From Rhodopseudomonas julia (GTDB lineage Bacteria; Pseudomonadota; Alphaproteobacteria; Rhizobiales; Afifellaceae), in assembly GCF_030813515.1 (NCBI RefSeq), contig NZ_JAUSUK010000002.1, forward strand, positions 1,674,001 to 1,738,000: a stretch of DNA of 64,000 nt, written 5' to 3'. A model generated the notes under the pieces. It was given only the letters and a program-made list of their open reading frames with translations. It was not told the DNA's origin and did not search any database. The position numbers were made by a program, and so were the translations under genes. Below are positions 46,498 through 64,000 of the stretch, in pieces (positions within the stretch are counted from its first letter, which is position 1; each line of letters starts with the position of its first letter).

Positions 46498-46529
46498 AGG
46501 TTGGCGGAACAAAGCCGGGCCAGAGACCG

Positions 46530-47420: not shown

Positions 47421-47472
47421 CAGGGCCCCGGGCGAAGCGAACTCCAAAGAAAGCAGAATGAACTTGCCGGCC

Positions 47473-48237: not shown

Positions 48238-48282
48238 GCGCCGCTCCCGTCATCCTTTGTCGAGGCAATTAAGCCGTTTCGT

Positions 48283-49122
48283 TCACTCCAGCGCAAGGCT
48301 CGGAAAGCGGTGGGCAAGATCGACGAGAAGATGGCTAAGCGCCCCGCCGCTGCGGCCGGCATGAGGGAGAGAGATCTCGGTGGTGCCGGCGACATGCGCG
48401 GGCGGCGGAGAGAGGACGATCAGCCGGTCGGCGAGCCGCGCCGCCTCACGGATATTGTGGGTGACCATGAGCACCGTGACAGGCCGCGACTGCCAAAGTT
48501 CCAGAAGCAGGTGGCGAAGCCGGTTCGCCGTCATCTCGTCGAGCGATACGAAGGGCTCATCGAGAAGCAGGATCTCCGGCTCGACGGAAAACGCGCGCGC
48601 CAGCGCCACTCGGCGCGCCATGCCGAGCGACAGTTCGGACGGATAGGCGCTGCGGAAGGCGTTGAGTTCCACCGCATCAAGCACCGGCGTGAGGTCCTTC
48701 TCCGCCATTTCAGGCGGCAGAGCGAGACGGATGTTGTCCTCCACGCTGCGCCAGGGCAAAAGCCGCGGCTCCTGGAAGACGGCGGCAAACCGTGCGCGCT
48801 GGAGCGCCGGCGAAACGGCACCGGAGAAGTCAGCGTCGAGCCCCAGCATGATCTTCAGCGTCGTCGTCTTACCGCATCCTGACGGGCCGAGAAGGCAGGT
48901 GAAGGTATGCGGCGTCAGCACGAAGGACAGGTCGCGGATAACCTCGACCTCTCCGCCATTTGCCCGCTTGAAGCGTTTGGCCTCGATGCGAACCGAAAAG
49001 GCATGATCCTCCACTTTGTCAGCATGGGGCACGCCGAGTTGACCGTGTAAGGCGGTATGAAAAGGAAGCACCTTCGCGCCCACGAGCTCCTCCTGTGGTG
49101 GGATTGGCCCCTCCTTGGTCAC
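48283..49122 (-). CDS. Taurine/nitrate-type ABC transporter, ATPase with divergent signature
   Basis: The 279-residue ATPase has Walker A GPSGCGKTT, Q-loop VFQEPRLLPW, Walker B ILLLDEPFVSLDE and H-loop VTHNIREA. The ABC signature reads LSLGMARR instead of LSGGQxQR, and there is a 45-residue N-terminal extension not usual in SsuB/TauB. The GTG start at 49122 overlaps the stop of the binding-protein gene and has GGAGGG upstream. It should power the permease encoded at 47473. The changed signature could lower or alter its ATPase activity. Confidence 0.88.
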   Translation of the reverse strand: MTKEGPIPPQEELVGAKVLPFHTALHGQLGVPHADKVEDHAFSVRIEAKRFKRANGGEVEVIRDLSFVLTPHTFTCLLGPSGCGKTTTLKIMLGLDADFSGAVSPALQRARFAAVFQEPRLLPWRSVEDNIRLALPPEMAEKDLTPVLDAVELNAFRSAYPSELSLGMARRVALARAFSVEPEILLLDEPFVSLDEMTANRLRHLLLELWQSRPVTVLMVTHNIREAARLADRLIVLSPPPAHVAGTTEISLPHAGRSGGALSHLLVDLAHRFPSLALE

Positions 49123-50108
49123 TCGCCCTCCTTCAGCACCGACCAGAAGGTTCCGGGCGACAAGGTTTGCGCGGAGCCAACCAGCTTCTCCCCGCCGATC
49201 GCTGCGAGCCTGCGATAGATCTTTTCGGTATCGGCCTCCTCCTCGGCCATCGGCCGGCTCGGAATGCCCTCACGGTAGCGTCTGACCAGATTGCGGAAGA
49301 TGGCGTCGTCTTCTGCATTCATGCTCGGACGGAGCCTGTCCCAGGCGGCGTCCGAGGTCCCGAGAAGCTCCTTCGCCTCATGCGAGGCGGCCACGAAACC
49401 GAGCATCGCGTCCTTGTGCTCGGCCGCCCATTCCTCGTTGAAAACATAGCCGATCGCCGAGATCGGTCCGGTCGCGCCGAAGGCTTTCGCGGCGTCCTGA
49501 CCGCTCACGAGCTCTCGGTAGCCTTCCGTCTCCAGCCGGGCGTTGTAGTGCCAGAAGTTCGACGCAGCGGCGAGCTCGCCATCTCTCAACTTCTCCGCGA
49601 GAAATGGCGGTGCGGCGAAGGCGGGCTGCGTCTCCTCGGCGAGGTCGAAGCCGTATCTGTCTTGCGCGAGGGCCCGGAACATAAGCCAGTTCTTATCGAG
49701 CGGGCCGCCGGCAACGCCGACACGACTGCCCCTCAAGTCTGCAAGCGTCTTCGCGATGCTGTCATCTGGCACCATGATGGCGCCGACCGATGTCGAATAA
49801 GGCACAAAGGTCAGCGGGATGCCTTCCGCCCGCTGGCGGGAGACGAAAAGCCAGTCGCTGACGATGACATCCACCTCGCCGGCGTTGATGCCGATGCGGC
49901 CGGCATCGCTACCGGCAAGCACCACCGGCTCCAGGCTGAAGCCATGCTTTTTGTCGAAACCGTTTTCGACAATGGTGTCAATCTCCCAGTTGACGGTCCC
50001 GAATTTCAAGACGCCGACGCGCACGATTTCTGCGTCTGCCGCACTCGCCCGAGCGCCGGCAACACAAAAAATGCATGACACCGCGAGCGCCAAGATTAGA
50101 TGGCGCAT
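49119..50108 (-). CDS. Taurine/nitrate/NMT1-type periplasmic substrate-binding protein
   Basis: The 329-residue protein has a signal peptide ending about ARASAADAE. It has an NMT1/SsuA-like fold: VRVGVLKFGTVNWEIDTI, AGEVDVIVSDWLFVSRQR and LRGSRVGVAGGPLDKNW. Of two adjacent ATGs, the one at 50108 is chosen because GGAGG lies five bases upstream; the other is at 50111. The ligand cannot be inferred. The neighbouring quinoprotein genes suggest a compound or cofactor precursor tied to alcohol oxidation. Confidence 0.87.
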   Translation of the reverse strand: MRHLILALAVSCIFCVAGARASAADAEIVRVGVLKFGTVNWEIDTIVENGFDKKHGFSLEPVVLAGSDAGRIGINAGEVDVIVSDWLFVSRQRAEGIPLTFVPYSTSVGAIMVPDDSIAKTLADLRGSRVGVAGGPLDKNWLMFRALAQDRYGFDLAEETQPAFAAPPFLAEKLRDGELAAASNFWHYNARLETEGYRELVSGQDAAKAFGATGPISAIGYVFNEEWAAEHKDAMLGFVAASHEAKELLGTSDAAWDRLRPSMNAEDDAIFRNLVRRYREGIPSRPMAEEEADTEKIYRRLAAIGGEKLVGSAQTLSPGTFWSVLKEGE

Positions 50109-50234
50109 CATCTCCTCCCCATTGCCGTCGTTTCTTTTCGCCGCGCGCACGCGACACCGGCTTCTTCTATAAACTTAGCAGTATCCGTGGCGCTGCCAAG
50201 CTGTGACTGCACCAGACTGACGTGATCCGCATCG

Positions 50235-51038
50235 CTACGCCTGCGCCGTCCGAGCGCGTATCTCCATGCCATGCACCGGCTTGTAGCCCCAGATTGCAAG
50301 CACCAGAAAAACCGCCAGACAGCCGAGGACGACGGCAAGCGAGGCGGGCTCGAGCTTGCCGTAGAGCGCAAAACGCACGAGTTCGACCGCATGCGTGAAA
50401 GGGTTTGCGGCGGAGATCTTGTAGAGCGCGACGCTCGCCTCGCGCATATGCCACAGGGGATAGAGCGCCGAAGACAGGAAGAAGGCCGGAAAGATGACGA
50501 AGTTCATCACCCCGGCGAAGTTTTCCAACTGCTTGACTGTCGAGGAAATGAACATGCCGACGGCGCCAAGCATCAGCCCGCTCACGACAAGCGCCGGCAG
50601 GATGAAAACGTAACCGAGCGGATCGAATTCGATGCCGAAGAGCCAGGCGATCAGAAGGAACGTATAGACCTGGAGGAGCGAGACGGCGGTCCCGGCTGTC
50701 AACTTCGCCACCAGAAGAAACCAGCGCGGCAAAGGCGTCGTGAGAAGCACACGCATGGAGCCCATCTCGCGGTCGTAGACCATCGATAGCGAAGATTGCA
50801 TGCCGTTGAAGAGCTGAATCATGCCCACAAGTCCCGGCACGATATAGACCTCGTAGGTGATGTAGGTCTCGTAGGGGGGGATGATCGAAATACCGAGGAC
50901 GGCGCGGAAGCCAGCGGCGAAAACGATCAGCCAGACGAGCGGGCGCACCAGAGCGGCGAGAAAGCGTTCGCGCTGATAGAGGAAGCGCATGATCTCGCGC
51001 CAGACGATCGCCGTGAAGGCGCGGGTGTAGACGCTCAT
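50235..51038 (-). CDS. PQQ-system ABC transporter, ABC-2 permease (PedC/LutF-like)
   Basis: The 267-residue ABC-2-type membrane protein has six helices and the family pattern REIMRFLYQRERFLAALVRPLVWLIVF. FNGMQSSLSMVYDREMGSMRVLLTTPLPRW, typical of PQQ-associated permeases, is also present. The ATG at 51038 overlaps the ATPase stop. In Pseudomonas putida (PedABC) and Methylobacterium (Lut), such transporters sit with PQQ dehydrogenase genes and are needed for growth at low lanthanide levels. Whether this one imports lanthanide or exports an alcohol-related compound is inference. Confidence 0.85.
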   Translation of the reverse strand: MSVYTRAFTAIVWREIMRFLYQRERFLAALVRPLVWLIVFAAGFRAVLGISIIPPYETYITYEVYIVPGLVGMIQLFNGMQSSLSMVYDREMGSMRVLLTTPLPRWFLLVAKLTAGTAVSLLQVYTFLLIAWLFGIEFDPLGYVFILPALVVSGLMLGAVGMFISSTVKQLENFAGVMNFVIFPAFFLSSALYPLWHMREASVALYKISAANPFTHAVELVRFALYGKLEPASLAVVLGCLAVFLVLAIWGYKPVHGMEIRARTAQA

Positions 51039-51853
51039 GCCCGCTCTCCCGCAGAACTCTCCCGCGTCGGCGTCGTCAGCATTGTGAAGGTGGTGTCGAG
51101 AGAGCCGGGACCTGAGCGCGCGACGATATCCGCGGATATGCCGCGTGCCACCACCCTGCCCTCATGGAGAATGACGAGCGCATCCTCCTCGCGGATCTCG
51201 TCGATCAGATGGGTCGCCCATAAAATGCCGACGTCACGCTCGCCCGCCAGCGCATGCACATGGCTCACGATCGCCTTGCGCGAGGGCGCATCGAGCCCGA
51301 CCGTCGGTTCGTCGAGCAGGAGAAGGTCGGGATCGTGCAGGAGCGCGCGGGCAATCTCCACACGACGCCGATGCCCCCCGTTGAGCGAGCGCACCGTCTC
51401 GCGCGCGCGCTCAGCCATGTCGAAGCGGGTGAGTTCGCGATCGATCCGCCTGCCCGCCTCCTTGAGCGAAAGCCCCCGCAGCCGCGCGAAATATGCCAGG
51501 TTCTGACGCACAGTGAGATCAAGGTCGAGCGTCGGCTGCTGAAAGACGATGCCGAGCGAGGCAAGTGCTGCCGCGCCAGCCTCCCGCGTATCGCGGCCGG
51601 CAATCAGGATGCGCCCAAGGGACGTCTCAAGCAGCCTTGTGATCAGCGAGAAGAGCGTCGTCTTGCCGGCGCCGTTGGGACCGAGAAGCGCCGTGAAGCG
51701 CCCCTTCTCCACCGCGAAGCCGACATCGTCGAGGACCGGCTTGTCGCGATAGGAAAACGAGAGATTCTCGATGAGAAGGGCCTGTCGTTCAGACTGTGCA
51801 GGCGCCTCGCCGAGAAGATCGCTCTGTGCCGAGACCGCCCGCAGGACCACCAT
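51035..51853 (-). CDS. PQQ-system ABC transporter, ATPase (PedB/LutE-like)
   Basis: The 272-residue ATPase has Walker A GPNGAGKTT, Q-loop IVFQQPTLDLDL, signature LNGGHRRRVEIARAL and Walker B LLLLDEPTVGLD, followed by WATHLIDEI. The Gly-Gly-His signature is the form seen in the PQQ-dependent alcohol dehydrogenase ABC subfamily. The ATG at 51853 follows a 70-codon gene by 3 bases. The first 25 residues are an extra leader. It forms a transporter with the ABC-2 permease at 50235. Confidence 0.87.
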   Translation of the reverse strand: MVVLRAVSAQSDLLGEAPAQSERQALLIENLSFSYRDKPVLDDVGFAVEKGRFTALLGPNGAGKTTLFSLITRLLETSLGRILIAGRDTREAGAAALASLGIVFQQPTLDLDLTVRQNLAYFARLRGLSLKEAGRRIDRELTRFDMAERARETVRSLNGGHRRRVEIARALLHDPDLLLLDEPTVGLDAPSRKAIVSHVHALAGERDVGILWATHLIDEIREEDALVILHEGRVVARGISADIVARSGPGSLDTTFTMLTTPTRESSAGERA

Positions 51854-51856
51854 CGC

Positions 51857-52069
51857 TCAGATCTTCTCTTCTCTGTCATTCACCCAGGCGCAATGAAATC
51901 CGGCAATGCGCCATTTCGGATGCTCTCCCGCCCATTGCGCCATGGTCGGCATCGCCTCCCACAGGCAGGTCTTCAGCGAGCTGCGCGACTGGTAGTAGAG
52001 ATGCTCTTCGTGGCATGTATTCGGGTTGTTCACCAGACACACGGCGAGGATCAGATCGACGACATCCAT
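51857..52069 (-). CDS. Conserved 70-residue cysteine-containing protein
   Basis: This short gene has GGAG about seven bases before the ATG at 52069 and ends 3 bases before the ABC ATPase. The protein has four cysteines (C11, C19, C35, C60) and a repeated AxxxWAGEHPKWRIAGFHCAW-like end. Similar short proteins occur in alphaproteobacteria without assigned function. It has no clear signal peptide, though residues 2-13 are hydrophobic. Position and coupling suggest a factor of the PQQ/lanthanide transporter. I cannot name a family. Confidence 0.75.
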   Translation of the reverse strand: MDVVDLILAVCLVNNPNTCHEEHLYYQSRSSLKTCLWEAMPTMAQWAGEHPKWRIAGFHCAWVNDREEKI

Positions 52070-52239
52070 GTCATCTCCTCTCGTACCGGCGCCTCCCATA
52101 GAGGAACCTCGGATCCGTCTTCCGACGGTCACTTCGGTGCATGCAGACGGATGTCGCCTCGGCGGCGCTCGATTGTAAATATCGCAGAAATCGTCCGCGG
52201 TAAGACCAGCACCCGCCGTTCCTGCCGGGATGACTGCCG

Positions 52240-52746
52240 TCATTGAGCCGTGTCTTTCGGCAGAATGCGATTCACCAGGAGCCAATCGAGCCCCTTCTGC
52301 CAGGAACGATCGGTGTTGGAACGGATATCGGCATTGAAGCCGGCGATGATCCGGCCCGTCTTCACGTCGCGCACGGCGATCGAAATGTTCAGGATCAGCT
52401 CCGACATCTTGTGAATGACGGGGACCATGGAGAGATCGGCGCCGACCGTCTCCGCGAAGCTGCGATCGCAATTGCCACAAGCCTGCAGCCGCGTCTCGGC
52501 AACCCTCTCGCGGACCGGAGCGATATCGACGACCGCAAACGTTTTGTCGGCGCCGAGCGCCTCCCGCAGCCGATCGGAGAGCATCGCGAGCCTTTGCTTT
52601 TCGGCTGCATTAGGAGGGTCGCCGGTTGAGGTGTTGACCAGCTCGAAATCGAAGACTGCGATTTTTAAGGGCGCCGCCTCCGCCGAGAAGCCGGCGAGCA
52701 CGGAGACAACGCAAAGAGCCAGGCGGAACAGCGTCATGCGCGACAT
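52240..52746 (-). CDS. DUF2380/DUF3280-like secreted protein
   Basis: The 168-residue protein has a signal peptide (about residues 1-24, ending GFSAEA). A mature part follows with KIAVFDFELVNTSTGDPP, a Leu/Arg-rich helix and ACGNCDRSFAETVGADL. It matches small periplasmic DUF families found near PQQ dehydrogenase genes. GGGAG lies seven bases before the ATG. The gene overlaps the downstream end of the response regulator by 13 bases, so they are co-transcribed. Its function is unknown. Confidence 0.75.
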   Translation of the reverse strand: MSRMTLFRLALCVVSVLAGFSAEAAPLKIAVFDFELVNTSTGDPPNAAEKQRLAMLSDRLREALGADKTFAVVDIAPVRERVAETRLQACGNCDRSFAETVGADLSMVPVIHKMSELILNISIAVRDVKTGRIIAGFNADIRSNTDRSWQKGLDWLLVNRILPKDTAQ

Positions 52747-53486
52747 CGGACATCTCCCGCTACAGATTGAGACGGCTCTCGGGCAGTCGCCTTGGAGGCT
52801 GCGAGGCCACCGCCCGCAGCAAGCTTGTAGCCGAAGCCGCGCACAGTCTGGATCAGAGGCTCAGCCTCGCCCTCGTCGATCTTGCGCCGCAGATAGCGGA
52901 TATAGACATCGACCGTCTTGGTGCCCGGCTCGAAGCTGTAGCCCCAGACATTGGCGAGGAGGCGTGTGCGGCTCACCACCTTACCGGCATGCCGCATGAG
53001 ATAGAGGAGAAGGGAGAATTCACGCGCCGTCAGCGCGATGTCTCGCCCCCCGCGACGCACAGAATGGCCGGACGGGTCGAGCGTCAGATCGCCGACGATA
53101 AGCGGTCGCTCCTCATCCAGATGCGGTCCGCGGCGCAAAAGCGCCTGCAGCCGCACCACAAGCTCGTCGAAGGCGAAGGGCTTGGTGAGATAATCATCGG
53201 CGCCGCTCGAAAACCCGTCCACCTTGTCCTTTAAGCTGTCTTTCGCCGTCAGCATCAGGATCATGCTGTGCGAGCCGTGAGCTCTGAGCTCCCGGCAGAC
53301 CGCGATGCCGTCGACGCCCGGCAGCATGCGGTCGAGGATAATCAGCGGATAGGCGGCCTCGGCGGCAAGAGCCAATGCCTCGCGGCCGCTTTCAGCGAGA
53401 TCGACCACATAACCTTCTGCTTTCAGCCCCCGACGCACGAAACCGGAGATGCGTGGATCGTCCTCCACCAGGAGAAGCCTCGTCAT
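52734..53486 (-). CDS. OmpR/PhoB-family response regulator
   Basis: The 250-residue regulator has a receiver domain with acidic pocket E8/D9/D10, phospho-acceptor D52 (LIILDRMLPG) and K102 (YLTKPF). A C-terminal winged helix follows (IALTAREFSLLLYLMRHAGKVVSRTRLLANVWGY and TVDVYIRYLRRKID). GAGCGAAG precedes the ATG at 53486. It follows the sensor kinase gene, reading from it on the minus strand. Within the quinoprotein cluster it may respond to alcohol, PQQ or lanthanide status. Confidence 0.93.
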   Translation of the reverse strand: MTRLLLVEDDPRISGFVRRGLKAEGYVVDLAESGREALALAAEAAYPLIILDRMLPGVDGIAVCRELRAHGSHSMILMLTAKDSLKDKVDGFSSGADDYLTKPFAFDELVVRLQALLRRGPHLDEERPLIVGDLTLDPSGHSVRRGGRDIALTAREFSLLLYLMRHAGKVVSRTRLLANVWGYSFEPGTKTVDVYIRYLRRKIDEGEAEPLIQTVRGFGYKLAAGGGLAASKATAREPSQSVAGDVRCRA

Positions 53487-53541
53487 GATCTTCGCTCCCT
53501 GTTTCGTTCGGTCATCGACCCACATCCCTCACGCATGGCGC

Positions 53542-55224
53542 TCACTCTGCGGCCGGCAGATAGGCCGGTGTCCGATCGTTCGTCTCACGCGCCTCATTCG
53601 CAAGCGCGGAAGCCGTGGTATCCAGCTCAAGCGCGGCTGCCGGCAGGCGCAGCAGGACTTTGAGCCTGTCGGGCCCGTCGCGGCCGAGCGCGATCGTGCC
53701 GTCGTGCTTCTCCACCAGCCACCGTGCGATTGCGAGGCCGAGGCCGCTGCCGGCGGAACCGGCCATCGCCGCTTCGCGACCCCGATAAAAACGGTCGAAG
53801 AGACGCGGCAGCTCTTCCTCGGCGATGGGTCCGCTGCGATTGACGACAACGAGCTCGGCCACACCCTCGCTGTAGCCGAGGCGGAGACGAACAATTTCGC
53901 CGTGCTCGGAATATTTCACGGCATTGTCGAGCAGGATCATCAGCACCTGCTTCAGCCGCGACCGGTCGCCGATCACGATCGGCGCGGCCGAGATCTCCGG
54001 CTCGATCCGAATTGCTCGCGGCCGTGCAAGGCTCGCCGCCTCACGCACGGCGTCTCCCAAGATTTCCGCCAGATCCACGGGATCGGCGGCGAGAGCCACC
54101 TCATCCGTTTCGGAACGGGCAAGCACCATCAAATCCTCGACCAGCCGCCCCATCGCCTCCGCCTCTTCGACGACGCGAATAAGCGCCTCTCGACAATCGG
54201 CAAGTTGCAGCGGTTTTGAGCGCAAGGTCACCTCCGCCTCACCACGCAGAACGGTCAGGGGCGCCCGCAATTCGTGGCTGACATCGGCGAGGAAGCGGAC
54301 CCGCGAGCGGTCGCGTTCGCGAAGTGCTGAATTCGCACCTTCAAGCTCTCGCGTGCGCGCCGCCACCTCCGCCTCGAGGCCCGCTTGCGCCTGGAGCAAC
54401 TGTGCCTGCTGCTCCTCGATGCGCGTCGCCATATCGTCGAAACGGCGGGCGAAGACGCCGATCTCGTCATCGCCGAGCGGCCCGAGCCGGAAAGAGAGCT
54501 CGCCGCGCCCGATCGCTTCCGCCCCGGCGCTCAGCCTCCTGATCGGGCGCGCCAGCGAGCGATGCAGCACATAGCCCGCAATCAGTGCGGCCGACAGAAG
54601 CACCGCCGAGACGAGCCCGATCCCCCAGCCGAGCCGGCCGAGAAGCTCGCGCGCCTCGCTGTCGGCCATCTCGATCTCGGCGATCTCATCCGCCATGGCC
54701 GCATCGATGAGTGCGGAGAATTCTTCGTCTGCGCGCCGATCGATCGTGCGGAAGAAAACACGGGCCGCGGCCTCGCCCTGCCCCACCTTCTGCATGGCGA
54801 GAAGCGCTTCGCCGCGGCGGTTCATGTCGTCATAGAGGCTTTTGAGGCGGCCGATCCGCACCGCCTCCTCCGCCTGGCCATGCGCGTCCCCGCGTGAACC
54901 GAGGAAGGCCGTCTCGTCGCGCGTCGTCTCCGACAGCGTCTCGAACGCGGCCCCGATGCCGGTTTGAAGGCGCACCACTTCGCCAGCCGCGGGCTTGCCC
55001 GTCATCAGCAACGCGGCGAGCGCCCTGGAATAATGATCGACGTCACGCGCCAGAGCGGTGACGGCCGCAAGCTGGCGATGGGCGAGCGCGCCGCGTGACA
55101 GGTGGAAGTGAAAAGCCTGGATCGCCAGAAAAGCGGCGACGATGAGGACAATGACGGCCGTCCCGACGATCAGCTGAAACGCCAGGATGCGCGTGCGGAT
55201 CGTCATCGGCGGAAATATCCGCAT
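53542..55224 (-). CDS. Sensor histidine kinase
   Basis: The 560-residue membrane kinase has a first helix (about residues 13-36), a periplasmic helical domain of about 150 residues and a second helix (LVSAVLLSAALIAGYVLH). A HAMP region, coiled coil, HisKA box (FLADVSHELRAPLTVLRGEAE) and HATPase_c with N-box LLDNAVKYS and G-box GSAGSGLGLAIARWLVEKH complete it. The ATG at 55224 has GAGGG five bases upstream; others at 55206 and 55248 are less supported. The sensor domain suggests a periplasmic signal. It is divergent from the PQQ-associated binding-protein gene at 55476. Confidence 0.92.
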   Translation of the reverse strand: MRIFPPMTIRTRILAFQLIVGTAVIVLIVAAFLAIQAFHFHLSRGALAHRQLAAVTALARDVDHYSRALAALLMTGKPAAGEVVRLQTGIGAAFETLSETTRDETAFLGSRGDAHGQAEEAVRIGRLKSLYDDMNRRGEALLAMQKVGQGEAAARVFFRTIDRRADEEFSALIDAAMADEIAEIEMADSEARELLGRLGWGIGLVSAVLLSAALIAGYVLHRSLARPIRRLSAGAEAIGRGELSFRLGPLGDDEIGVFARRFDDMATRIEEQQAQLLQAQAGLEAEVAARTRELEGANSALRERDRSRVRFLADVSHELRAPLTVLRGEAEVTLRSKPLQLADCREALIRVVEEAEAMGRLVEDLMVLARSETDEVALAADPVDLAEILGDAVREAASLARPRAIRIEPEISAAPIVIGDRSRLKQVLMILLDNAVKYSEHGEIVRLRLGYSEGVAELVVVNRSGPIAEEELPRLFDRFYRGREAAMAGSAGSGLGLAIARWLVEKHDGTIALGRDGPDRLKVLLRLPAAALELDTTASALANEARETNDRTPAYLPAAE

Positions 55225-55241
55225 GCCGGCCCTCTGTCGCG

Positions 55242-55259
55242 GCGGCACGAAGGTGCCGC
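55242..55259 (-). other. Perfect 7-bp hairpin upstream of the histidine kinase gene
   Basis: GCGGCAC (55242-55248) pairs with GTGCCGC (55253-55259) around a tetraloop, 17 bases before the kinase start codon and close to its GAGGG ribosome-binding site. It lies in the 251-bp divergent gap between the kinase and binding-protein genes. It may affect translation of the kinase. Confidence 0.35.
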
Positions 55260-55475
55260 TTCCTCCCTATCGCGCCTTTTTTCTTTGCCTTTTTTACGAA
55301 CTTTCATGACGCCGGACGAATGTTACCCGTTCAATTCTTCTCGGCAAGTGTGCAACCATATCTTTCTCAGTTTCGAAGCACGACGGCACGACAAACCGAA
55401 GTGGCGCCAGAGCTCTCTCCGCATTCTAACCTTGGCTTAATTGCTCTCTAACGCGAGATGACGTGAGGTAGAGAC

Positions 55476-56729
55476 ATGGCAAATGGGTGCTTCATCCGGA
55501 TCGACATTCTGCGCAATCTCCTCGCGACTCTTTCTCTCGTCGCGTTCACTCTGGCGTTTGGCGACATCACGCCCGTTGCGGCAGAGGATGCGGCGGGCGC
55601 TGAGAATGCCGACAGCGAAGTGACGATCGGCTATCTCCGCTCGCCCCTGCCGGACTGGCTCCCCATTTCTTTGAGCGAGCGTCCGCGTGAGGACGACGGC
55701 ATCGCCGGCGCGCGCCTTGCCATTACAGACAACAACACGACGGGCCGTTTCACCGGTCAGAAATACGAACTTGAAGATGCCGCTGTGAGCGACCAGCAGC
55801 AGGCACTGGACGCCCTCGGCGAGATGAATGCCGAGGGCGTCCGTTTTGTCGTCGCGGATCTTCCCGCCGACACGCTTCTTGCCATCACCGATGAGGCCGC
55901 GAAGACGGACACGCTCGTCTTCAATATCGGCGCCGCCGACGATCGGCTGCGCGAAGCCGATTGCCGAGGCAATCTCATTCACGTGACGCCGAGCCGGGCG
56001 ATGCTCGCCGATGCGCTCGTGCAATATCTCGTCACCAAGAAATGGACGCGTCTCTTCCTTCTCGTCGGCTCACACGCCGCCGACGAGGATTATGCGGCCG
56101 CTGTCGAACGGGCCGCGAAACGCTTCGGCGCCAAGATCGTGGAAAAACGCGTCTTCACCGACACCGGCGGCGCCCGCACCACCGATTCCGGACTCGTTCA
56201 GGTCGATGCCCAGATGGCCGTCTTCACCCAATCGGCACCCGATCACGACGTGGTCGTCGTCGCCGACGAGAGCGAGATTTTTGGGCCCTATGTCCCCTAC
56301 CACACCTGGGATCCGCGGCCGGTCGCCGGCACCTCCGGGTTGAAACCCACGAGTTGGTCGGCAGCCCACGACCAATGGGCCGGGATCCAGATTCAAAACC
56401 GCTTCGTCGCCGCCTATGACCGGCAAATGACGGCAAAGGATATGGACGCCTGGACGGCCGTCAGGATGATCGGCGAGGCGGCGACGCGCAGTTCCAGTAC
56501 CGATGCCGCGACCATGGCCAATTTCATCAAGGGACCGAGCTTTGAAGTGGCGGCCTTCAAAGGGCAGAAGCTGACACTTCGCGACTGGAACTGGCAGCTC
56601 CGGCAGCCGATCCTGCTCGCCGATGGCCGCATGGTCGTCTCCGTCTCGCCTCAGGAAGGCTTTCTGCATCAGACCTCTACACTCGATACGCTCGGCTACG
56701 ACCGACCCGAGAGCGGGTGCCGGCTATGA
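55476..56729 (+). CDS. PQQ-associated ABC transporter periplasmic binding protein (PedA/LutA-like)
   Basis: The 417-residue protein has a long signal peptide (about residues 1-36, ending PVAAED). A branched-chain-amino-acid-binding-like fold follows with EVTIGYLRSPLPDWLP, EMNAEGVRFVVADLPAD and VRMIGEAATRSSS. It corresponds to the periplasmic component family of PQQ-dependent alcohol dehydrogenase ABC systems. In P. putida and Methylobacterium the homologues are part of lanthanide-linked transport. The stop overlaps the next gene's start (ATGA), so translation is coupled. Confidence 0.87.
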   Translation: MANGCFIRIDILRNLLATLSLVAFTLAFGDITPVAAEDAAGAENADSEVTIGYLRSPLPDWLPISLSERPREDDGIAGARLAITDNNTTGRFTGQKYELEDAAVSDQQQALDALGEMNAEGVRFVVADLPADTLLAITDEAAKTDTLVFNIGAADDRLREADCRGNLIHVTPSRAMLADALVQYLVTKKWTRLFLLVGSHAADEDYAAAVERAAKRFGAKIVEKRVFTDTGGARTTDSGLVQVDAQMAVFTQSAPDHDVVVVADESEIFGPYVPYHTWDPRPVAGTSGLKPTSWSAAHDQWAGIQIQNRFVAAYDRQMTAKDMDAWTAVRMIGEAATRSSSTDAATMANFIKGPSFEVAAFKGQKLTLRDWNWQLRQPILLADGRMVVSVSPQEGFLHQTSTLDTLGYDRPESGCRL

Positions 56730-57733
56730 TGCACGACCGTCACGGAAGAGGCCGCAGGGCGCTTCGCAGCATTGTCGGGCTCACGCTCGCGGGGATGATG
56801 CTGTCGCTGCCGGCGCCCGCTTTCGCCTATAAAATCTTCGTTTCCAACGAAGGCGACAACACCATGACGGTGCTCGACAGTGCCTCCATGGAGGTGATCG
56901 AGACCGTCCCCGTCGGCCAGCGCCCGCGCGGCATCACCATCACCAACGACGGCAAATACGTGCTTCTGTGCGCGAGCGACGACGACACCGTGCAAATGAT
57001 CGATGCCGAAACCTACAAGGTCGTCGCCACGCTTCCCTCCGGCCCTGATCCCGAGCTCTTCGTCCTCGATCCGGACGGACGCCTTCTCTACATCGCCAAC
57101 GAGGACGACAACCTCGTCACGGTCGTGAACGTCGAAGAGCGTTCGCTCGTCAGCGAAATCCCGGTCGGCGTGGAGCCCGAAGGCATGGGCGTGTCGCCGG
57201 ATGGGTCGGTGATCGTGAACACGTCGGAAACGACGAGCATGGCCCATTTCATCGACGCCGAAACGCACGAGATCACCGACAACGTGCTCGTCGATTCCCG
57301 CCCGCGCTTCGCGGAGTTCAAGCACGACGGTTCGGAGGTCTGGGTCTCCGCCGAGATCGGCGGAACGGTCAGCGTCATCGATACGGCCGCCCACGAGGTG
57401 ACCCACAAGATCACCTTCGACATTCCAGGCCTGCGGCCCGAAGCAATCCAGCCGGTCGGGGTGCGCATCACCGGCGACGACAAAACCGCCTTCGTTGCGC
57501 TTGGCCCGGCGAACCGCGTCGCCATCGTCAATGCCGAAACCTATGAGGTGGAGGAGTACCTACTCGTAGGGCAGCGGGTCTGGCAGCTCGCCTTCTCGCC
57601 CGACGAGAGCCTCCTTTTCTCGACCAACGGCATCTCCAACGACATTTCCGTCATCGATGTCGCCGATCGCGAAGTGATCAAGAGCATTCAGGTCGGGCGA
57701 TTGCCCTGGGGGGTGGTGACGACGTCGGAATAG
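56726..57733 (+). CDS. PQQ-dependent catabolism-associated YVTN beta-propeller protein
   Basis: The 335-residue protein has a signal peptide (to about APAFAYK). Several YVTN-like blades of about 40 residues follow, such as VSNEGDNTMTVLDSASMEVIETVPVGQRPRGI, IANEDDNLVTVVNVEER and ISNDISVIDVADREVIKSIQVGRLPWGV. It fits the beta-propeller family seen beside PQQ-dependent ABC systems. The ATG at 56726 overlaps the stop of the binding-protein gene. A periplasmic scaffold or ligand-sequestering role is possible. It lacks catalytic motifs. Confidence 0.88.
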   Translation: MMHDRHGRGRRALRSIVGLTLAGMMLSLPAPAFAYKIFVSNEGDNTMTVLDSASMEVIETVPVGQRPRGITITNDGKYVLLCASDDDTVQMIDAETYKVVATLPSGPDPELFVLDPDGRLLYIANEDDNLVTVVNVEERSLVSEIPVGVEPEGMGVSPDGSVIVNTSETTSMAHFIDAETHEITDNVLVDSRPRFAEFKHDGSEVWVSAEIGGTVSVIDTAAHEVTHKITFDIPGLRPEAIQPVGVRITGDDKTAFVALGPANRVAIVNAETYEVEEYLLVGQRVWQLAFSPDESLLFSTNGISNDISVIDVADREVIKSIQVGRLPWGVVTTSE

Positions 57734-57833
57734 GCGGTGACCGGCAGCTCGGGCCGAGACACCGCAAAGCGAGGGAACGGAACGACACGGTCGAAAAGCG
57801 CCAGGGCGAAGAACGACAGGGGGAGGAAGAACT

Positions 57834-58262
57834 ATGCAGATGAAGAGGAGCGCAGAACTTGCCATTCTGGCGGCCGCCGCGGCTTTCGCGCCGGCGCTCG
57901 CACATGCTCAGTCCGGGCTCTTGACCCGACCGATCGATGTCGGGCCGATCACACTGTCTTCGGGCAAGCCATTGCTCGAGGCACCAATCGAGCTTGAATC
58001 CGGCAAGCAATACAAACTGACGATCGAGGCCGATGGCACGGCCGAACTCGCCGTGCACGGCGCCGATTTCTTCCGCAATGTGTGGGTAAACGAGATCGTC
58101 ATCAACGACATCGAGATACGCCCGCTCGGCGTCGATTCCATCGAGTTCGACGCCGCAGGTGAAGTTGAGATGACCTTCGTGCCGATCCGGCCTGGAAGGT
58201 TTGAATTGCGCATTCCGAACACCACCGGCGAGACGCAGGGCGCCCAGATTCTGGTCAAATGA
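57834..58262 (+). CDS. Secreted conserved protein of the PQQ cluster (unknown function)
   Basis: The 142-residue protein has a signal peptide (ending HAQSG) and a beta-rich mature domain. Alternating polar and hydrophobic strands are visible (YKLTIEADGTAELAVHG and MTFVPIRPGRFELRIPN). No metal-binding cysteine is present. GGGGGAGGAAG precedes the ATG at 57834. It lies 100 bp after the beta-propeller gene and continues into the next gene. A periplasmic binding or structural role is likely. I do not recognise a family. Confidence 0.75.
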   Translation: MQMKRSAELAILAAAAAFAPALAHAQSGLLTRPIDVGPITLSSGKPLLEAPIELESGKQYKLTIEADGTAELAVHGADFFRNVWVNEIVINDIEIRPLGVDSIEFDAAGEVEMTFVPIRPGRFELRIPNTTGETQGAQILVK

Positions 58263-58336
58263 GGGGTGGGGGCGGGGGCCGGCAGCATTGCTCTGACGGG
58301 CTTGCGGCCGGCCCCATCGGCGCGCATTCTGGTTGC

Positions 58337-58963
58337 ATGGTCGTCTCGGGATGCCGCTTCCTGATCGTTGTCGCCGCCGTGCTCACTCTGACGGGCGCAT
58401 CGGCCATAGCCCAGCCACGCAAAGATCCCGACTGGCCCTGCATTCAGCCGGAAGTGCCGACGCTCTCGGTCGTGCAGGTATGGACCGGCCCTTCGGTCGA
58501 TGAGGCGGTGACGGCCTGGCGCGACGACGAGGCGATCGCAGTACTCGCCCGCAGGCTCGCCGCACGCCGCATGCCGATCGAGGACGCGAAAGCTGCAATC
58601 CGGGACTTTTCCGCCGGCCTCGATAAATCCGAGAAGGAGGCGCGGCTGACCCGGCTCTTCGCCGGCATTTTCGCAACGCTGAACGCAGAGCGCAGCGAGG
58701 TGATGAGCGGCATCAAGCATTATGCGCGCCGGCAGAAGGCGATGGCTGAGGAGATCCGCACGCAGCAATCGACCCTGAGCGACCTTCGCCAAAAATCGCC
58801 CGATTCCGAAAAAGCCCAGGAGCTGAAAACCGGCCTTCTCGTGCAGGTCCGCATTTTCAACGACCGGCGCCATTCGCTCAAATATGTCTGCGAAGTGCCC
58901 TCGCTGATCGAGCAACGCCTTTTCGCACTCGCAAGGGAGATACAGGCCGAGCTTTCGGATTGA
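58337..58963 (+). CDS. Secreted helical protein with conserved DWPC motif (unknown function)
   Basis: The 208-residue protein has a signal peptide (MVVSGCRFLIVVAAVLTLTG, ending near AIAQP). The mature protein starts with PDWPCIQPEVPTLSVVQVWTGP, then charged, mostly helical segments that may coil. A second cysteine lies in YVCEVPSL. The start at 58337 gives a normal signal peptide. An in-frame ATG at 58259 overlaps the previous stop and could be the coupled start, but would add a Gly/Arg-rich stretch. Its place suggests a PQQ-cluster function. Confidence 0.65.
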   Translation: MVVSGCRFLIVVAAVLTLTGASAIAQPRKDPDWPCIQPEVPTLSVVQVWTGPSVDEAVTAWRDDEAIAVLARRLAARRMPIEDAKAAIRDFSAGLDKSEKEARLTRLFAGIFATLNAERSEVMSGIKHYARRQKAMAEEIRTQQSTLSDLRQKSPDSEKAQELKTGLLVQVRIFNDRRHSLKYVCEVPSLIEQRLFALAREIQAELSD

Positions 58964-59064
58964 GCGGCCACACGCTTGCCTCGCCTGCGACCTCGCCGAA
59001 ACCCGAAGATCCCTCCCCGAACGAAAACCTCTTGGGCTGAACGCAGCGGTCGAAGCGTGTCAGA

Positions 59065-59928
59065 TCAATGGGTGATCGGCTTTTCGTGGGCGTCGAGGAT
59101 GGGCACGCCATAATCGAGCAGGATTGCATCGATCGCGTTCTGGTTCTCTCGGATCAGCCGATTGAGCGTGCGCTTGAACTCCTGATCGGTCGGGCGCACG
59201 CCCATGGTGATGCGGTAGACCATGCGCGAACCGCCCTCCTCGCTCAAAAGCGCAGTGACGGTGAGAGGCGGATCAGCCTGGCTTGCGAACCAGCCGGCGA
59301 GCGGCCCCCACAGCGCAGCCACGTCGATCTCGCCGGCCTTCAGATCGGCGATCATCGCCTCGGCGCTGGTCCCCCGACGCGTATCGACCATCAGCTGATA
59401 GGGCTTCGCTTTCTTGAGAAGCCCGTGCATGGCCATATTGGTCGCGGGCGGTGTGCGCGCGACGACGCCGATGCGCTTGTCCTTGAGGCGCGGATCGGCG
59501 AGCGTCGTCACTTCCCCAAGGCCGGAATCCGGCATCGTCACCAGCGCATAGGCGGTCTGGTAATAGGCGTTGGTGTTCTGCACCAGTTCGTCGCCCTGCG
59601 CATAGCTCATGATGACATCGCATTCATGAGCGCCGAGCGTATGCCGCACGAAGCCCATCACTTCGGGAAAGTAGGTATAGGCGACCGTCTTCCCGAGTTT
59701 TTCTGCAAAGAGCTCGGCCAGCTTCTGCTCATAGCCTTCCTCCTTTTGATTGGAGAAGGGCATGTTGCTGGGATCGGCGCAGACGCGAAAGACGTTCGGA
59801 TCGACGAGTTCGATCGCTTCGCCGAGCCCCGTCGTCTGGGCCAGGCCCTGCCCCTGTGTTGCAGAAAGCCCAAGGATTGCGGCCGACATCGCGATCGCCA
59901 GGCGGATGTGCGTGGGAGCCGGTATCAT
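59065..59928 (-). CDS. xoxJ: XoxJ/MxaJ-like quinoprotein-associated periplasmic binding protein
   Basis: The 287-residue protein has a signal peptide (about residues 1-30) and an extracellular solute-binding family 3 fold: FRVCADPSNMPFSNQKEEGYEQKLAELFAEKLG, then MSYAQGDELVQNTNAYYQTAYALV. It matches the MxaJ/XoxJ group, thought to help activate methanol dehydrogenase. The ATG at 59928 overlaps the xoxG stop (ATGA). The gene order xoxF-xoxG-xoxJ is the usual one. Reading through a longer upstream frame would be wrong. Confidence 0.93.
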   Translation of the reverse strand: MIPAPTHIRLAIAMSAAILGLSATQGQGLAQTTGLGEAIELVDPNVFRVCADPSNMPFSNQKEEGYEQKLAELFAEKLGKTVAYTYFPEVMGFVRHTLGAHECDVIMSYAQGDELVQNTNAYYQTAYALVTMPDSGLGEVTTLADPRLKDKRIGVVARTPPATNMAMHGLLKKAKPYQLMVDTRRGTSAEAMIADLKAGEIDVAALWGPLAGWFASQADPPLTVTALLSEEGGSRMVYRITMGVRPTDQEFKRTLNRLIRENQNAIDAILLDYGVPILDAHEKPITH

Positions 59929-60446
59929 GTGCCGAGACAATCGTTTTCCGCCTTCATGAAGGACTCCGGCTTCTTTTCCTTCTTGGGCGGACGGCCGCGT
60001 GGCAGATCTCCTTGCGCTCGCGCCCTCAGATAGACGTAGATGTCGTCGATGTAGCACATCACGTTCGGGTTGGTGCCGAAGGACGGCATGACGTTCTTCT
60101 GCGAGCTGGAGACATTCTCGCGTCCACCGGCGACGACCGCCAGGAAATGCGCGTAATCGAGACGTTCGAGCGAATGGGCGAGTGCCGGCGCATAGCTCGA
60201 CCCAAGACCGTCGGGGCCATGGCAGACATGGCAGGCGGCATGATAGCGGCGATAACCGGAGAACGTATACCAGTCGACTTCCCCGTTCTCGAACTTGAAA
60301 GTGGGCGTCCCGTCGGCGTCGAAGTATTTTCCGTCTCGGTCCTCCGCGATGGCGGGATCCCCCGGAGTATCCTGTGCAACAGCGGCAGAAGCCAGAAATC
60401 CACAGACAAGAGCAAAGACAAGCGCGACCATGCTGCGAGCGAGCAT
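59925..60446 (-). CDS. xoxG: XoxG-type c-type cytochrome
   Basis: XoxG is the periplasmic electron acceptor of XoxF. The 173-residue protein has a signal peptide (ending VAQDTP), the haem site C72-H-V-C75-H76 and a likely axial M120 (VMPSFG). Extra cysteines C131 and C170 match the four-cysteine methanol-metabolism cytochrome family, where they can form a disulphide. The gene lies 77 bp downstream of xoxF and overlaps xoxJ. Confidence 0.93.
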   Translation of the reverse strand: MLARSMVALVFALVCGFLASAAVAQDTPGDPAIAEDRDGKYFDADGTPTFKFENGEVDWYTFSGYRRYHAACHVCHGPDGLGSSYAPALAHSLERLDYAHFLAVVAGGRENVSSSQKNVMPSFGTNPNVMCYIDDIYVYLRARAQGDLPRGRPPKKEKKPESFMKAENDCLGT

Positions 60447-60478
60447 CGTAACTCCTGACAGGTTGATGAGGCATCTGT

Positions 60479-60509
60479 GGAGAGCCCGGCAAAAGGCCGG
60501 GCCCTCTCT
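60479..60509 (-). other. Imperfect hairpin between xoxF and xoxG
   Basis: GAGAGCCCGGC and GCCGGGCCCTCTC form a stem of about eleven pairs with a small bulge and an AAAA-centred loop. It lies in the 77-bp gap downstream of the xoxF stop. No T-run follows on the minus strand. It could be a processing or partial termination site that raises xoxF over xoxG expression. Confidence 0.4.
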
Positions 60510-60523
60510 TCAGCTCGCCAGTC

Positions 60524-62422
60524 TCAATCGGGAAGCGCGAAGACCGTCAGCACGCCACCGAGATTGGTGAAGTTGGCAAGGCCCGAATAGCCGCCGACCG
60601 CGCCAAGGCCGGCCGTACCGACCTGAGCCTCCGTATCCCCCTGCTCACGCCCCTGATCGACAGCCTCGTGCCAACCTGCAGCCGTTTCGGGCGACAGGAG
60701 ACCCGCCGCAAGCCCGATGCCGGCCCAGCCCCCGACACCCGAAAGGACGGCGATATACTGCTTGCCGTCATGCTCGTAGGTGTTGACGTTGCCGATGATT
60801 CCGGAAGGCGTCTTGAACCTGTAGAGCTCCTTACCGGTCTCGATATCGACCGCCTTGAGATACCCTTCGAGCGTGCCGTAGAAGACGACGTCGCCGGCCG
60901 TGGCGAGTGCACCGCCCCAGGCTGAGAACTGTTCGGGGATCGACCAGACGATCTCGCCCTTCCTGGCATCCCAGGCGATGAAATTGCCCATGCCGCCATG
61001 GCTGTCCGGTGCCGGATACATCGACACGGTCGCACCCACATAGGGCTGGCCGGCGGTGTAGCTGACGCGGAACGGCTCGTAATCCATGCACACATGGTTC
61101 GTCGGGACATAGAACATCTGGGTCTTCGGCGAATAAGCGGCCGGCTGCTGGTCCTTGGTGCCGAGCGCCGCTGGGCAGATGCCCTCGACGTTGGTGTCCT
61201 CACCCTGCGCATCGGTGGAATAGTCGCTCACCACCGTGGGCCGACCATACGTCTCGCTGTCCTTGTCCATGTCGACGCCGCTCGTCCAATTGACTGCGGG
61301 GTCGTATTTCTTGGCAAGCAGGAGTTCGCCCGTCTCGCGATTCATGGTGTAGGCAATCCCGTTGCGGTCGAAATGCACGAGCGCTTTCACCATCTCGCCG
61401 TCGATTTCGAGATCGACCAGGATCATCTCGTTGACGCCGTCATAATCCCACTCGTCGTGCGGCGTCATTTGATAGAGCCACTTCGCCATGCCCGTATCGG
61501 CATCGCGCGCAAAGATCGTCATCGAGTATTTGTTGTCGCCCGGCCGCTGGTTCGGGTTCCACGTCGATGGATTGCCCGTTCCGTAATAAATGAGGTTCAG
61601 ATCCGGGTCATAGGCGTACCAGCCCCAGGTGGTGCCGCCACCGGTCTTCCACTGGTCGCCTTCCCAGCTTTGAAGGCTGGAATCCTTGCCGATCGGCTTA
61701 CCGAGCGCCATCGTCTTTTCCGGGTCGACGAGCATGTCTTCGTCCGGACCAGTGGAGAACGCCTTCCAGGCGACCGAGCCGTCGGCAAGACTGTAGACGG
61801 TGACCCGGCCACGCACGCCGAATTCGGCACCGGAGACGCCGATCAGCACCTTGTCCTTGTAGACCAGGGGCGCCGAGGTCGCACTTTCCGCCTTGCCGGG
61901 GTCGCCGTTTTTGACCTTCCAGACCTCTTCGCCGGTTTCGGCGTTGAGGGCCACGACCGTCGTATCCGCCTGACTGAGGATCAACATCGCCGGATGGCCC
62001 TCGCCTTCCGGCGCATAGGCTGGGCCGCGATTGACCGTGTCGCAGCACATGATCGGGATCACGCTCGAATCCTGAACCGGCTCATATTTCCATTTGATGG
62101 CGCCGTCGTTGTTGAGGTCGAGCGCATAGACGATGTTCGGAAACGGCGTATGCACGTACATCATGTCATTGATGACGAGTGGTCCGCCTTCATGACCACG
62201 CAGGACGCCGGTTGAAAACGTCCATGCGACCTGCAGATCGCCGACATTGTCCTTGTTGATTTGATCGAGCTCGGAGAAGCGGTGATTGGCATAATTGCCG
62301 GTGGGCATGACCCACTCTTTCGCGTTCTTCTCCATTTCAATGAGTTTTTCATTAGAGAATGCTGGCCCCATCAATATGACGAGCCCAAGCCCGGCGCAAA
62401 GCGCCGTCACGATGCGACCCAT
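60524..62422 (-). CDS. xoxF: Lanthanide-type PQQ methanol dehydrogenase XoxF
   Basis: XoxF oxidises methanol (and often other alcohols or formaldehyde) in the periplasm with PQQ and a lanthanide ion. The 632-residue precursor has a signal peptide (ending MGPAFSNE). Key sites are the vicinal disulphide C126-C127, metal ligands E200 (SGAEFG) and N284 (GTGNPSTWN), catalytic D326 and the extra D328 ([11 protein letters not shown]) that marks lanthanide enzymes. Tryptophan-docking blade repeats run through the protein. GGGAGGG precedes the ATG at 62422; a longer ATG at 62443 would add seven residues. It heads the xoxFGJ operon. Confidence 0.96.
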
Positions 62423-62727
62423 TTGACCCTCCCATTGCGACATTAGCGTCGTCTATGGTTTCGTTACGTACAGCCGCGGCCGAACGCACGAACGCTTATT
62501 GAAAAGGGTTTTCGACAATACGAAACGACATCGAGCTACGCTTTCATTTGCGCACTCGAACTGACCTTCGACAGCATCCAATTCCCAGGTTGGATTCTTT
62601 TTAAGTCGAAAACCTAATGAGTACTGTACGGGCATTCTGCATTCTCGGCAAGGATACTGATGACTCCTTGTCGCACCCAGATGCCTTGAAGACCCGAAAA
62701 GCCCGCCAAAGCCGATACTTCGGGCGC
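62423..62727. other. 305-bp non-coding stretch upstream of xoxF
   Basis: No gene is supported. It should contain the xoxF promoter. A 13-bp palindrome GAAAA-GGG-TTTTC at 62501-62513, about 80 bases before the xoxF start, is a candidate regulator site. A weak inverted repeat CCCGAA...TTCGGG spanning 62695-62726 could end the upstream 62728 gene. I see no clear -35/-10 pair. Confidence 0.4.
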
Positions 62728-63090
62728 TCAGTTACCCTTGAAGCAGCGCACATCCGCCTCAGCCTGGGCGCGGCGCAGATCCTGGATCGACGCATTCGAG
62801 CGTGGGCTGTTGCGAAAGATATCGGCACCTTCTCCGTGCAATTGGTGCATGCTCAAGAAGGTGCTCGCGGTCAGATAACGCTCATAGGTGAGGAGCGAGG
62901 CGACGACGTCGATCGAACAGGCGCAGGCGGACAGGACCGGCCGCGTCTCGCCATTCGCCTTCATGCAGGCATAGACATATTCGGCGATCGCCTCGCTCGG
63001 ATAGTCGTTGCCGGCCGAGGCGGCCATCGCCAATGCCGGGCTCGTGCAAAGAGTGGCGGCAAGGACGGGACCAAAGATTGTGTGACGCAT
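62728..63090 (-). CDS. Small secreted cysteine-rich protein beside xoxF
   Basis: The 120-residue precursor has a signal peptide (about residues 1-23) and a mature protein with four conserved-looking cysteines: C42, C56, C58 and C116. The stretch LSACACSIDVVASLLTYERYLTAST and the end VRCFKGN are distinctive. Comparable proteins occur near xoxF genes in other alphaproteobacteria, in my recollection without known function. GGGAGGG lies seven bases before the ATG at 63090; a longer ATG at 63105 overlaps it. It is upstream of xoxF in the same direction. Confidence 0.75.
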   Translation of the reverse strand: MRHTIFGPVLAATLCTSPALAMAASAGNDYPSEAIAEYVYACMKANGETRPVLSACACSIDVVASLLTYERYLTASTFLSMHQLHGEGADIFRNSPRSNASIQDLRRAQAEADVRCFKGN

Positions 63091-63819
63091 CGTTCGCCCT
63101 CCCATCTCGCCGAAAAGTTGCCGCGTTGCTCAAAAGCTCCACCTTGGCCAGGCTGGTGACGAGCCTTCAGCGCGCGGTACGGGAACGCAGCTTGGGTCGC
63201 CTCATTCATCCCGGCAGGACGCCATCTAGACGTGCTCCACCACAAACATCGGCACTATGGGCTCGTCACCACGCCCGAGAGCCCCACAAACTTCCAAGGG
63301 AAAGCGTCTTCCTTCCAGGGGGAAGCGTCTTCCCAGATCGACGACATTCGACATGTCCCAATACGACGTCGGTCGTGCGGCGTTTGAAGCGTGACCTTCC
63401 TTTCTGCCGCGCCGCAACAGAAATAAACTCGCAAGACGGCAGATAACTTCGGAAATGAACGAACTCTGTCTTTCTAGATAAGTCTAAAAAATTGTCGGCC
63501 GCAACGCTTACCTCGTACTTCTGGCGCCTGGAAGGTGTCAGCCGACACGATCTCACGCTTCGCCAATTGCGTATCTTGTGGACCAACGCCGACGGCTGTG
63601 CCCGGATCACCAACGCGCCGTCGGCCTTCAACGCGAAATGCGCTGCGGCACGGCCGGTGACGGGCGATCCGGAAAACACCGATCCGGCCTGCAGTCTGTC
63701 GTCCCATCATGCCGAGATGGAGAAACTCGCCCGGAACTGGGCCACGGACAGGCGCCCGAGGCGCCGCCACCCTTCACCTATCGCCGCTTCCGGTAGCCGT
63801 TGCCGGAGACCGGCCTCAC
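63091..63819. other. 729-bp stretch without a convincing gene
   Basis: Open frames exist on both strands but have no ribosome-binding sites and low-complexity Arg/Pro/Ser-rich products, so none is called. The stretch holds a 21-bp tandem repeat at 63291-63332 and an AT-rich patch around 63425-63500 that may be a promoter region. The left end probably carries the promoter of the small secreted protein gene. Confidence 0.5.
63291..63332. repeat. Tandem 21-bp repeat with internal dyad
   Basis: Two adjacent 21-base units (63291-63311 and 63312-63332) differ at only two positions. Each contains a near-palindromic (G)GAAGCGTCTTCC core. They lie about 200 bases upstream of the small secreted protein gene on the minus strand. 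Two identical dyads in tandem resemble paired operator sites. Replication slippage is the other explanation. Confidence 0.55.
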
Positions 63820-64000
63820 CTAGAGGCCGAGGGAGCCCGTCTTCAGAAACTGCCTCATGAGAGCAGCGACGAACGACCGGTCGAGCGCCGTTTCGCGAAT
63901 CCGGTCGGGCAGAGACTTCCGCATCGCCTCGGGCAATGCGGCGCCGCGTTCGGCGAGAAGCCCACTCACATAATCCGCATCGAATTCCGGGTGTGGCTGG
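63820..64000 (-). CDS. Class I glutamine amidotransferase domain protein, C-terminal fragment (runs off the right edge)
   Basis: The last 60 codons of a minus-strand gene are visible. They start with QPHPEFDADYVSGLLAERG, where the HPE is the catalytic His-Glu pair of class I glutamine amidotransferases. An Arg/Leu-rich tail ending KTGSLGL follows. The catalytic cysteine half lies beyond base 64000. The protein would release ammonia from glutamine for a partner reaction, and many such stand-alone proteins resemble the GMP-synthase amidotransferase half. Its identity cannot be resolved further. Confidence 0.75.
   Translation of the reverse strand, partial: QPHPEFDADYVSGLLAERGAALPEAMRKSLPDRIRETALDRSFVAALMRQFLKTGSLGL

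Follow-up and report, generated by a model that had tools for sequence, protein, structure and literature searches.

A lanthanide import and methanol oxidation cluster with a putative PQQ transporter in Rhodopseudomonas julia, in which PQQ synthesis genes were not recognised

We analysed a stretch of 64,000 nucleotides from the Rhodopseudomonas julia genome (assembly GCF_030813515.1, contig NZ_JAUSUK010000002.1, positions 1,674,001 to 1,738,000 of the forward strand; called here the window) and found in it a complete Lut/Ped-type lanthanide importer, the xoxFGJ genes of a lanthanide-dependent methanol dehydrogenase, and an ATP-binding cassette (ABC) transporter of the PqqT type. Our reading, to which we assign a probability of about 0.5, is that this set is kept by a bacterium without the genes for synthesis of pyrroloquinoline quinone (PQQ), and that its XoxF runs on scavenged PQQ. 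In the proposed scheme, LutA, the propeller protein and LutEF would carry lanthanide inward, XoxF with XoxG and XoxJ would oxidise methanol in the periplasm, and PQQ released by neighbours would cross the outer membrane to be captured by PqqT and retained in the cell, so that XoxF would work on scavenged PQQ. The ligands, the enzyme activity and the PQQ scavenging are what we infer from the sequences. In the titles, abstract openings and passages available, we found no published description of XoxF and Lut genes kept with a PqqT-type transporter after the loss of PQQ synthesis. If the reading is true, a shared cofactor can sustain lanthanide-dependent methanol oxidation, and alphaproteobacteria, in which PqqU is reportedly nearly absent, would have a route for PQQ uptake in a PqqT encoded beside xox and lut.

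Results

Probable loss of PQQ synthesis genes

In the R. julia genome, the best PqqE score was 110.6 bits against a cut-off of 381.35, PqqB reached 28.3 bits against 245, and PqqC had no match; the protein with 110.6 bits fitted a different radical SAM family marginally better. Relatives were taken from a sample of 61 genomes (R. julia and 60 others; 50 from 50 different families and 11 from one). A XoxF match at an E value of 1e-150 was found in 13 of them, and the 11 with a best match of at least 61% are called XoxF-positive here, G005 (50%) and G040 (52%) having been set aside in a split made post hoc. Among 16 genomes searched for PqqC, 12 scored above the cut-off (the 10 other XoxF-positive relatives, Lutibaculum (G061) and Alsobacter (G062)), while PqqC was not found in R. 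julia (G000), its genus mate G001, or the family members G005 and G008. Since G005 and G008 have LutA relatives but no PqqC match, the loss of PQQ synthesis may not be unique in the family; G008 also has a PqqT-like protein (67%).

A trace of the synthesis genes is left in the window. When the window and the next 18 kb were cut into 2,035 six-frame pieces, a PqqE profile picked out one remnant (Table 1), the next piece having an E value of 0.4, and profiles of PqqB and PqqC found nothing better than 1.4 in the same pieces. The remnant shifts frame within about 50 codons, and after it, in a different frame, comes a PPPFTYRR tail comparable with PPPFEYRR in the PqqE of relative G047. In G047, pqqB, pqqC and pqqE come directly after the homologue of gene 62728 (genes without a family are called by their first position in the window), and the remnant in R. 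julia lies at the same place and in the same relative direction. Elsewhere the pqq genes lie at the opposite end of the cluster (Lutibaculum) or run in the opposite direction (G014). A weak PqqD-like string to the left of the remnant was not counted. As the remnant decayed, 16 cluster genes stayed open over 4,765 codons, which suggests that selection has kept the rest.

A PqqT-type transporter beside the lut genes

The binding protein of the ABC transporter at 47473-50150 matched the structures 9b1u/9b1v over residues 41-336 (score in Table 1), and the solved sulfonate binder 2x26 with 23 bits. Its Lys153 was kept in 55 of 55 matches that span the position, some of them from overlapping loci. 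If a leader of about 27 residues is assumed, Lys153 would correspond to K142 of PqqT, which we take to be the lysine that contacts PQQ. The permease and the ATPase have a family resemblance to SsuC/TauB-type proteins below the cut-off, and Pfam places the binding protein in NMT1.

Published work is cited here from excerpts of the papers. PDB 9B1V contains PqqT with PQQ and gadolinium, and PqqT, with a dissociation constant of 50 nM, enables uptake of exogenous PQQ (PMC12828617); the same constant is given in PMC12124388. From the 269-bit match of the R. julia protein with PqqT (PDB 9B1V; PMC12828617, PMC12124388) and from its conserved lysine, PQQ is its predicted ligand. In Methylorubrum extorquens AM1, PqqT is described as a supplement to the cell's own PQQ synthesis (PMC12828617, PMC12124388). 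None of the excerpts on PqqT puts its gene next to xox or lut.

PqqT-like proteins (E value 1e-40) were found in 15 of the 61 genomes, including 10 of the 11 XoxF-positive ones (hypergeometric probability 3.3e-7) and 13 of the 17 with LutA (3.2e-8). The exceptions were G014, XoxF-positive without a PqqT-like protein, and G019 and G049, with a PqqT-like protein but no LutA. At one locus of G008 (L131, contig C86), the PqqT-type transporter genes are convergent with LutFE; because G008 has neither a XoxF match at 1e-150 nor PqqC, the link of PqqT to PQQ-dependent alcohol systems is a wider one.

The lanthanide importer and XoxF

Families were called by NCBIfam bit scores against the curated cut-offs, with Pfam for the remaining genes. 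Table 1 shows that all four Lut/PedA1A2BC components scored above their cut-offs. The first-pass annotation of this DNA had described a lanthanide acquisition and methanol dehydrogenase cluster, and the genes it named (the ABC-2 transporter, the binding protein, the propeller and xoxFGJ) are indeed open frames at the places given, with small shifts of start sites: the propeller opens with GTG at 56717, and the earlier choice, 56726, is a later in-frame start. It had also held that closer similarity of the transporter to a family with another ligand would count against the proposal; since the permease scored 409.9 bits with PedC against 115.8 bits with the second-best family, no closer family was found for it. 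Three features escaped it: the pqqE remnant, a two-component system at 52734-55248, and the PqqT-type transporter, which lies outside the coordinates first given for the cluster (50235-63090). The labels LutB (propeller), LutC (57834) and LutG (58259) are putative and follow gene order. No relative of LutA was found in PDB by sequence at an E value of 0.01.

Table 1. Features of the cluster region, with positions in the window
Feature	Position	Strand	Evidence
ABC permease, PqqT-type transporter	47473..48237	-	PF00528; homologues adjoin PqqT-like proteins
ABC ATPase, PqqT-type transporter	48283..49122	-	PF00005
PqqT-like periplasmic binding protein, predicted PQQ ligand	49119..50150	-	269 bits to PDB 9b1u/9b1v; Lys153
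LutF/PedC ABC-2 permease	50235..51038	-	TIGR03861 (PedC permease) 409.9 bits, cut-off 241.35
LutE/PedB ATPase	51035..51853	-	TIGR03864 (PQQ_ABC_ATP) 332.1 bits, cut-off 302.25
DUF3280 protein, secreted-looking	52240..52746	-	PF11684 139.8 bits
OmpR-type response regulator, possible sensor pair	52734..53525	-	PF00072, PF00486
Sensor histidine kinase	53542..55248	-	HisKA, HATPase_c, HAMP
LutA/PedA1 periplasmic binding protein	55476..56729	+	TIGR03863 (PQQ_ABC_bind) 480.9 bits, cut-off 413.6
YVTN propeller, PedA2 type, putative LutB by gene order	56717..57733	+	TIGR03866 515.6 bits, cut-off 287.3
Secreted-looking protein, putative LutC position	57834..58262	+	no family match
Secreted-looking protein, putative LutG position	58259..58963	+	real start perhaps Met at 58337
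XoxJ	59065..59868	-	TIGR03871 (XoxJ type) 302.9 bits, cut-off 212.15
XoxG cytochrome c	59925..60446	-	TIGR03874 (XoxG type) 225.2 bits, cut-off 161.75
XoxF lanthanide methanol dehydrogenase	60524..62443	-	TIGR03075 741.8 bits, cut-off 480.05
Four-cysteine secreted-looking protein	62728..63105	-	no family; four invariant Cys
Remnant of pqqE 3' part	63636..63746	+	profile from 18 relatives, E 4.8e-07
Window part of the ~22.9 kb segment missing in genus mate G001 (slightly more in G002)	47533..64000	.	continues to C2:1744413

The dehydrogenase had XoxF 6oc5/6oc6 as its best solved match (959 bits) and carries the extra lanthanide aspartate in a WDYD motif at residues 332-335. It is the sole close match in the genome; the two further PQQ enzymes of R. 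julia (1139.2 and 986.2 bits with TIGR03074; loci L002 and L003) are distant membrane dehydrogenases of the glucose/quinate/shikimate family. Close to its C-terminus XoxF has a stretch of 24 residues that seemed odd at first sight, but it is common to four of the seven matches listed (Ensifer, Sinorhizobium, Mesorhizobium).

The need of this system for lanthanide-dependent growth may be judged by analogy with mutants of its homologues (PMC7391723, PMC6839425). In AM1 without mxaF, loss of lutE or lutF abolished methanol growth with lanthanum until suppressors emerged, lutA, lutB and lutG mutants grew more slowly, and the ABC mutants kept lanthanum in the periplasm (PMC7391723). Loss of pedA1A2BC raised the lanthanum requirement about 100-fold (PMC6839425). 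Bradyrhizobium and Sinorhizobium strains carry homologues of five lut genes (A, B, E, F and G), and in S. meliloti a lutH is not obvious (PMC12628762). On pSymB of S. meliloti 2011, XoxF, lanthanide uptake and PQQ synthesis lie within 28.5 kb (PMC12628762). The methylotrophy island of TMED127 includes lutABEFCG (PMC12542740).

Comparison with these systems showed what is shared and what differs. Like that of R. julia, the lanthanide system of AM1 comprises a binding protein, an ATPase, a permease and exported proteins, but its cluster (META1p1778-1787) includes the TonB receptor gene lutH and lanM, and its xoxFGJ genes lie apart at META1p1740-1742 (PMC7391723), whereas in R. julia xoxFGJ is adjacent to lut and no TonB receptor is near. 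Pseudomonas putida KT2440 likewise has a binding protein, a YVTN propeller, an ATPase and a permease in pedA1A2BC, and the authors of that study found no counterpart there of the TonB receptors of methylotrophs; the system serves the ethanol dehydrogenase PedH, while the R. julia cluster has XoxF (PMC6839425). S. meliloti 2011 also has uptake beside xoxF on pSymB, but has kept the PQQ synthesis that R. julia lost (PMC12628762). Rhizobium leguminosarum pSK01 shares uptake genes beside xoxF, the PqqT-type transporter and the 62728 homologue. In Lutibaculum baratangense AMV1 (locus L066) the gene order is almost identical and the directions are the same (PqqT-type transporter, LutFE, DUF3280, LutA, propeller, 57834, 58259, xoxJGF). 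There the PqqT-type transporter has its ATPase and permease genes swapped, a two-component system is absent, and pqqB, C and E, which R. julia lacks, adjoin that transporter.

Taken together, the sequence data support lanthanide import genes beside genes for lanthanide-dependent methanol oxidation as a real cluster, of a kind already described. Adjacent uptake and use, which the first-pass annotation had pointed out, stands on the curated families found here and on the published homologue mutants, but is not new, since the same juxtaposition is already in print and recurs in other genomes.

Occurrence among relatives

In a scan of named genomes we took the best 80 of 583 LutA relatives, which are mostly Bradyrhizobium, and the sample leans to that genus. 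The counts below are for the 64 of these 80 lutA loci that each span at least 19 kb. At least one of xoxF, xoxG and xoxJ was present in 57 loci; separately, xoxF (60% identity) was found in 24, xoxG in 25 and xoxJ in 48, and many Bradyrhizobium loci have xoxJ within reach but not xoxF. The propeller was present in 64, LutE and LutF in 62 each, a PqqT-like protein in 46, and homologues of 58259 and 62728 in 60 and 47. Among the 61 genomes, LutA was found in 17, and lutA and xoxF were at most 10 kb apart in 7 of the 11 XoxF-positive genomes, convergent in 6 of these 7, the R. julia window included.

History of the segment

The left flank in the genus mates G001 and G002 (to window positions 47532 and 47421) joins directly to sequence matching C2:1744414 and C2:1744445, and about 22.9 kb and 23.0 kb are missing. 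In G001, some 60 bases resembling the end (3') of the PqqT-type permease gene remain, fused to roughly the final 19 bases of the regulator gene from the opposite end of the segment. We considered whether the segment had been inserted recently, but these scraps favour loss in G001 over recent gain in R. julia, at any rate where the outer genes are concerned. G003 and G004 had no flank match and are uninformative on this history. Matches to LutA, XoxF, PqqT-like proteins, 58259 and 62728 were absent from all four genus mates (G001-G004). The far part of the segment (L127:524-6432; C2:1738524-1744432), by open reading frames only, seems to hold a polyamine-like ABC transporter, a peptidase-like gene and an IclR-like regulator. 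Rfam at the gathering score found nothing in 46000-64000.

Outer membrane receptors and lanmodulin

Three TonB barrels scored above the Pfam cut-off in R. julia; their genes are on contig C1, and none of them is close to the cluster. By type, one is a heme receptor above the cut-off (HasR-like), and two partial frames are siderophore- and B12-like below it. No LutH-type receptor was near the cluster, no LutH sequence having been compared. The earlier remark that neither a TonB receptor nor a lanmodulin gene is visible was checked in part: no barrel is nearby, and in the window and the next 18 kb a single EF-hand pattern match was found, antisense to a LysR gene, the rest of the genome not having been searched for lanmodulin.

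Discussion

Several observations weigh against scavenged PQQ as the cofactor of the R. julia XoxF. No PqqU-like receptor was recognised among the three TonB barrels, no PqqU sequence having been compared, and PqqU is reported from one alphaproteobacterium only, while PQQ can cross the outer membrane by diffusion, though inefficiently (PMC12124388). As XoxF is periplasmic, there is no obvious need to import PQQ into the cytoplasm. Some PQQ makers have PqqT-like proteins too, and the presence of PqqT is therefore no proof of scavenging by itself. The absence of the segment from G001 and G002 fits decay equally, and the R. julia genome, 99.06% complete in 5 contigs, is not closed. The published PqqU scavengers likewise have PQQ enzymes without PQQ synthesis, but no PqqU was recognised in R. 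julia (PMC12124388).

The main alternative is a decaying relic, in which PQQ synthesis was lost first, XoxF is left with no cofactor, and the other genes would disappear in turn, as they did in the genus mates, all four of which lack the marker genes of the cluster; the 22.9-kb segment is indeed gone from G001 and G002, with end scraps left in G001. We consider this unlikely, because the 16 genes have stayed open while the pqqE remnant decayed and the XoxF aspartates are intact. It is improbable that the transporter at 47473-50150 takes a sulfonate- or nitrate-like ligand and sits beside lut by chance or shared regulation. The SsuC/TauB-type resemblance of its permease and ATPase, below the cut-off, and the Pfam name NMT1 point that way, but the binding protein scored far higher with PqqT than with 2x26, the lysine is conserved, and the association with LutA and XoxF recurs in relatives. 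Very improbable, finally, is that PQQ is still made, by an operon in the unassembled part of the genome or by one too divergent for the models. The assembly leaves some room for it, and the PqqC search was silent in 14 control genomes; against this, the same PqqC model succeeded in 12 of 16 genomes, the pqqE remnant shows where the genes were lost, and PqqB, PqqC and PqqE are all missing.

Beyond the scavenging reading, we hold a wider picture tentatively, at somewhat less than even odds: an alphaproteobacterium that keeps lanthanide import and XoxF would obtain PQQ from neighbours through the in-cluster PqqT-type transporter rather than PqqU, with 62728 as a XoxF-specific partner.

Small secreted proteins and neighbouring genes

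Homologues of 62728 and of 58259 (E value 1e-4) were each found in precisely the 11 XoxF-positive genomes; the remaining 50, G005 and G040 among them, had neither. The chance of such an exact overlap is 2.4e-12 for each protein if the genomes are independent. 62728 has a leader-like start and its four cysteines are invariant; no family matched it, and in R. leguminosarum pSK01 it is annotated as hypothetical. Foldseek with the AlphaFold models of 62728 (predicted local distance difference test, 77.7) and 58259 (85.7) gave no PDB match at an E value of 0.001 or better, and Pfam on 20 and 26 alignment members gave weak scattered matches only (best 0.017 and 0.0037). Both are candidate factors for XoxF maturation or lanthanide handling. 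58259 probably corresponds to LutG, and the lutG mutant of AM1 grows poorly (PMC7391723).

The response regulator and histidine kinase genes lie between the DUF3280 gene and lutA. A sensing role, claimed earlier for the cluster, is suggested only by this adjoining pair; since no counterpart at 38% identity was present in any of the 94 loci compared, it may be a lineage-specific sensor. Among the named lutA loci (best 80 of 583), a homologue of 57834 was found in 15 and one of the DUF3280 gene, adjacent to lutA in divergent orientation, in 44.

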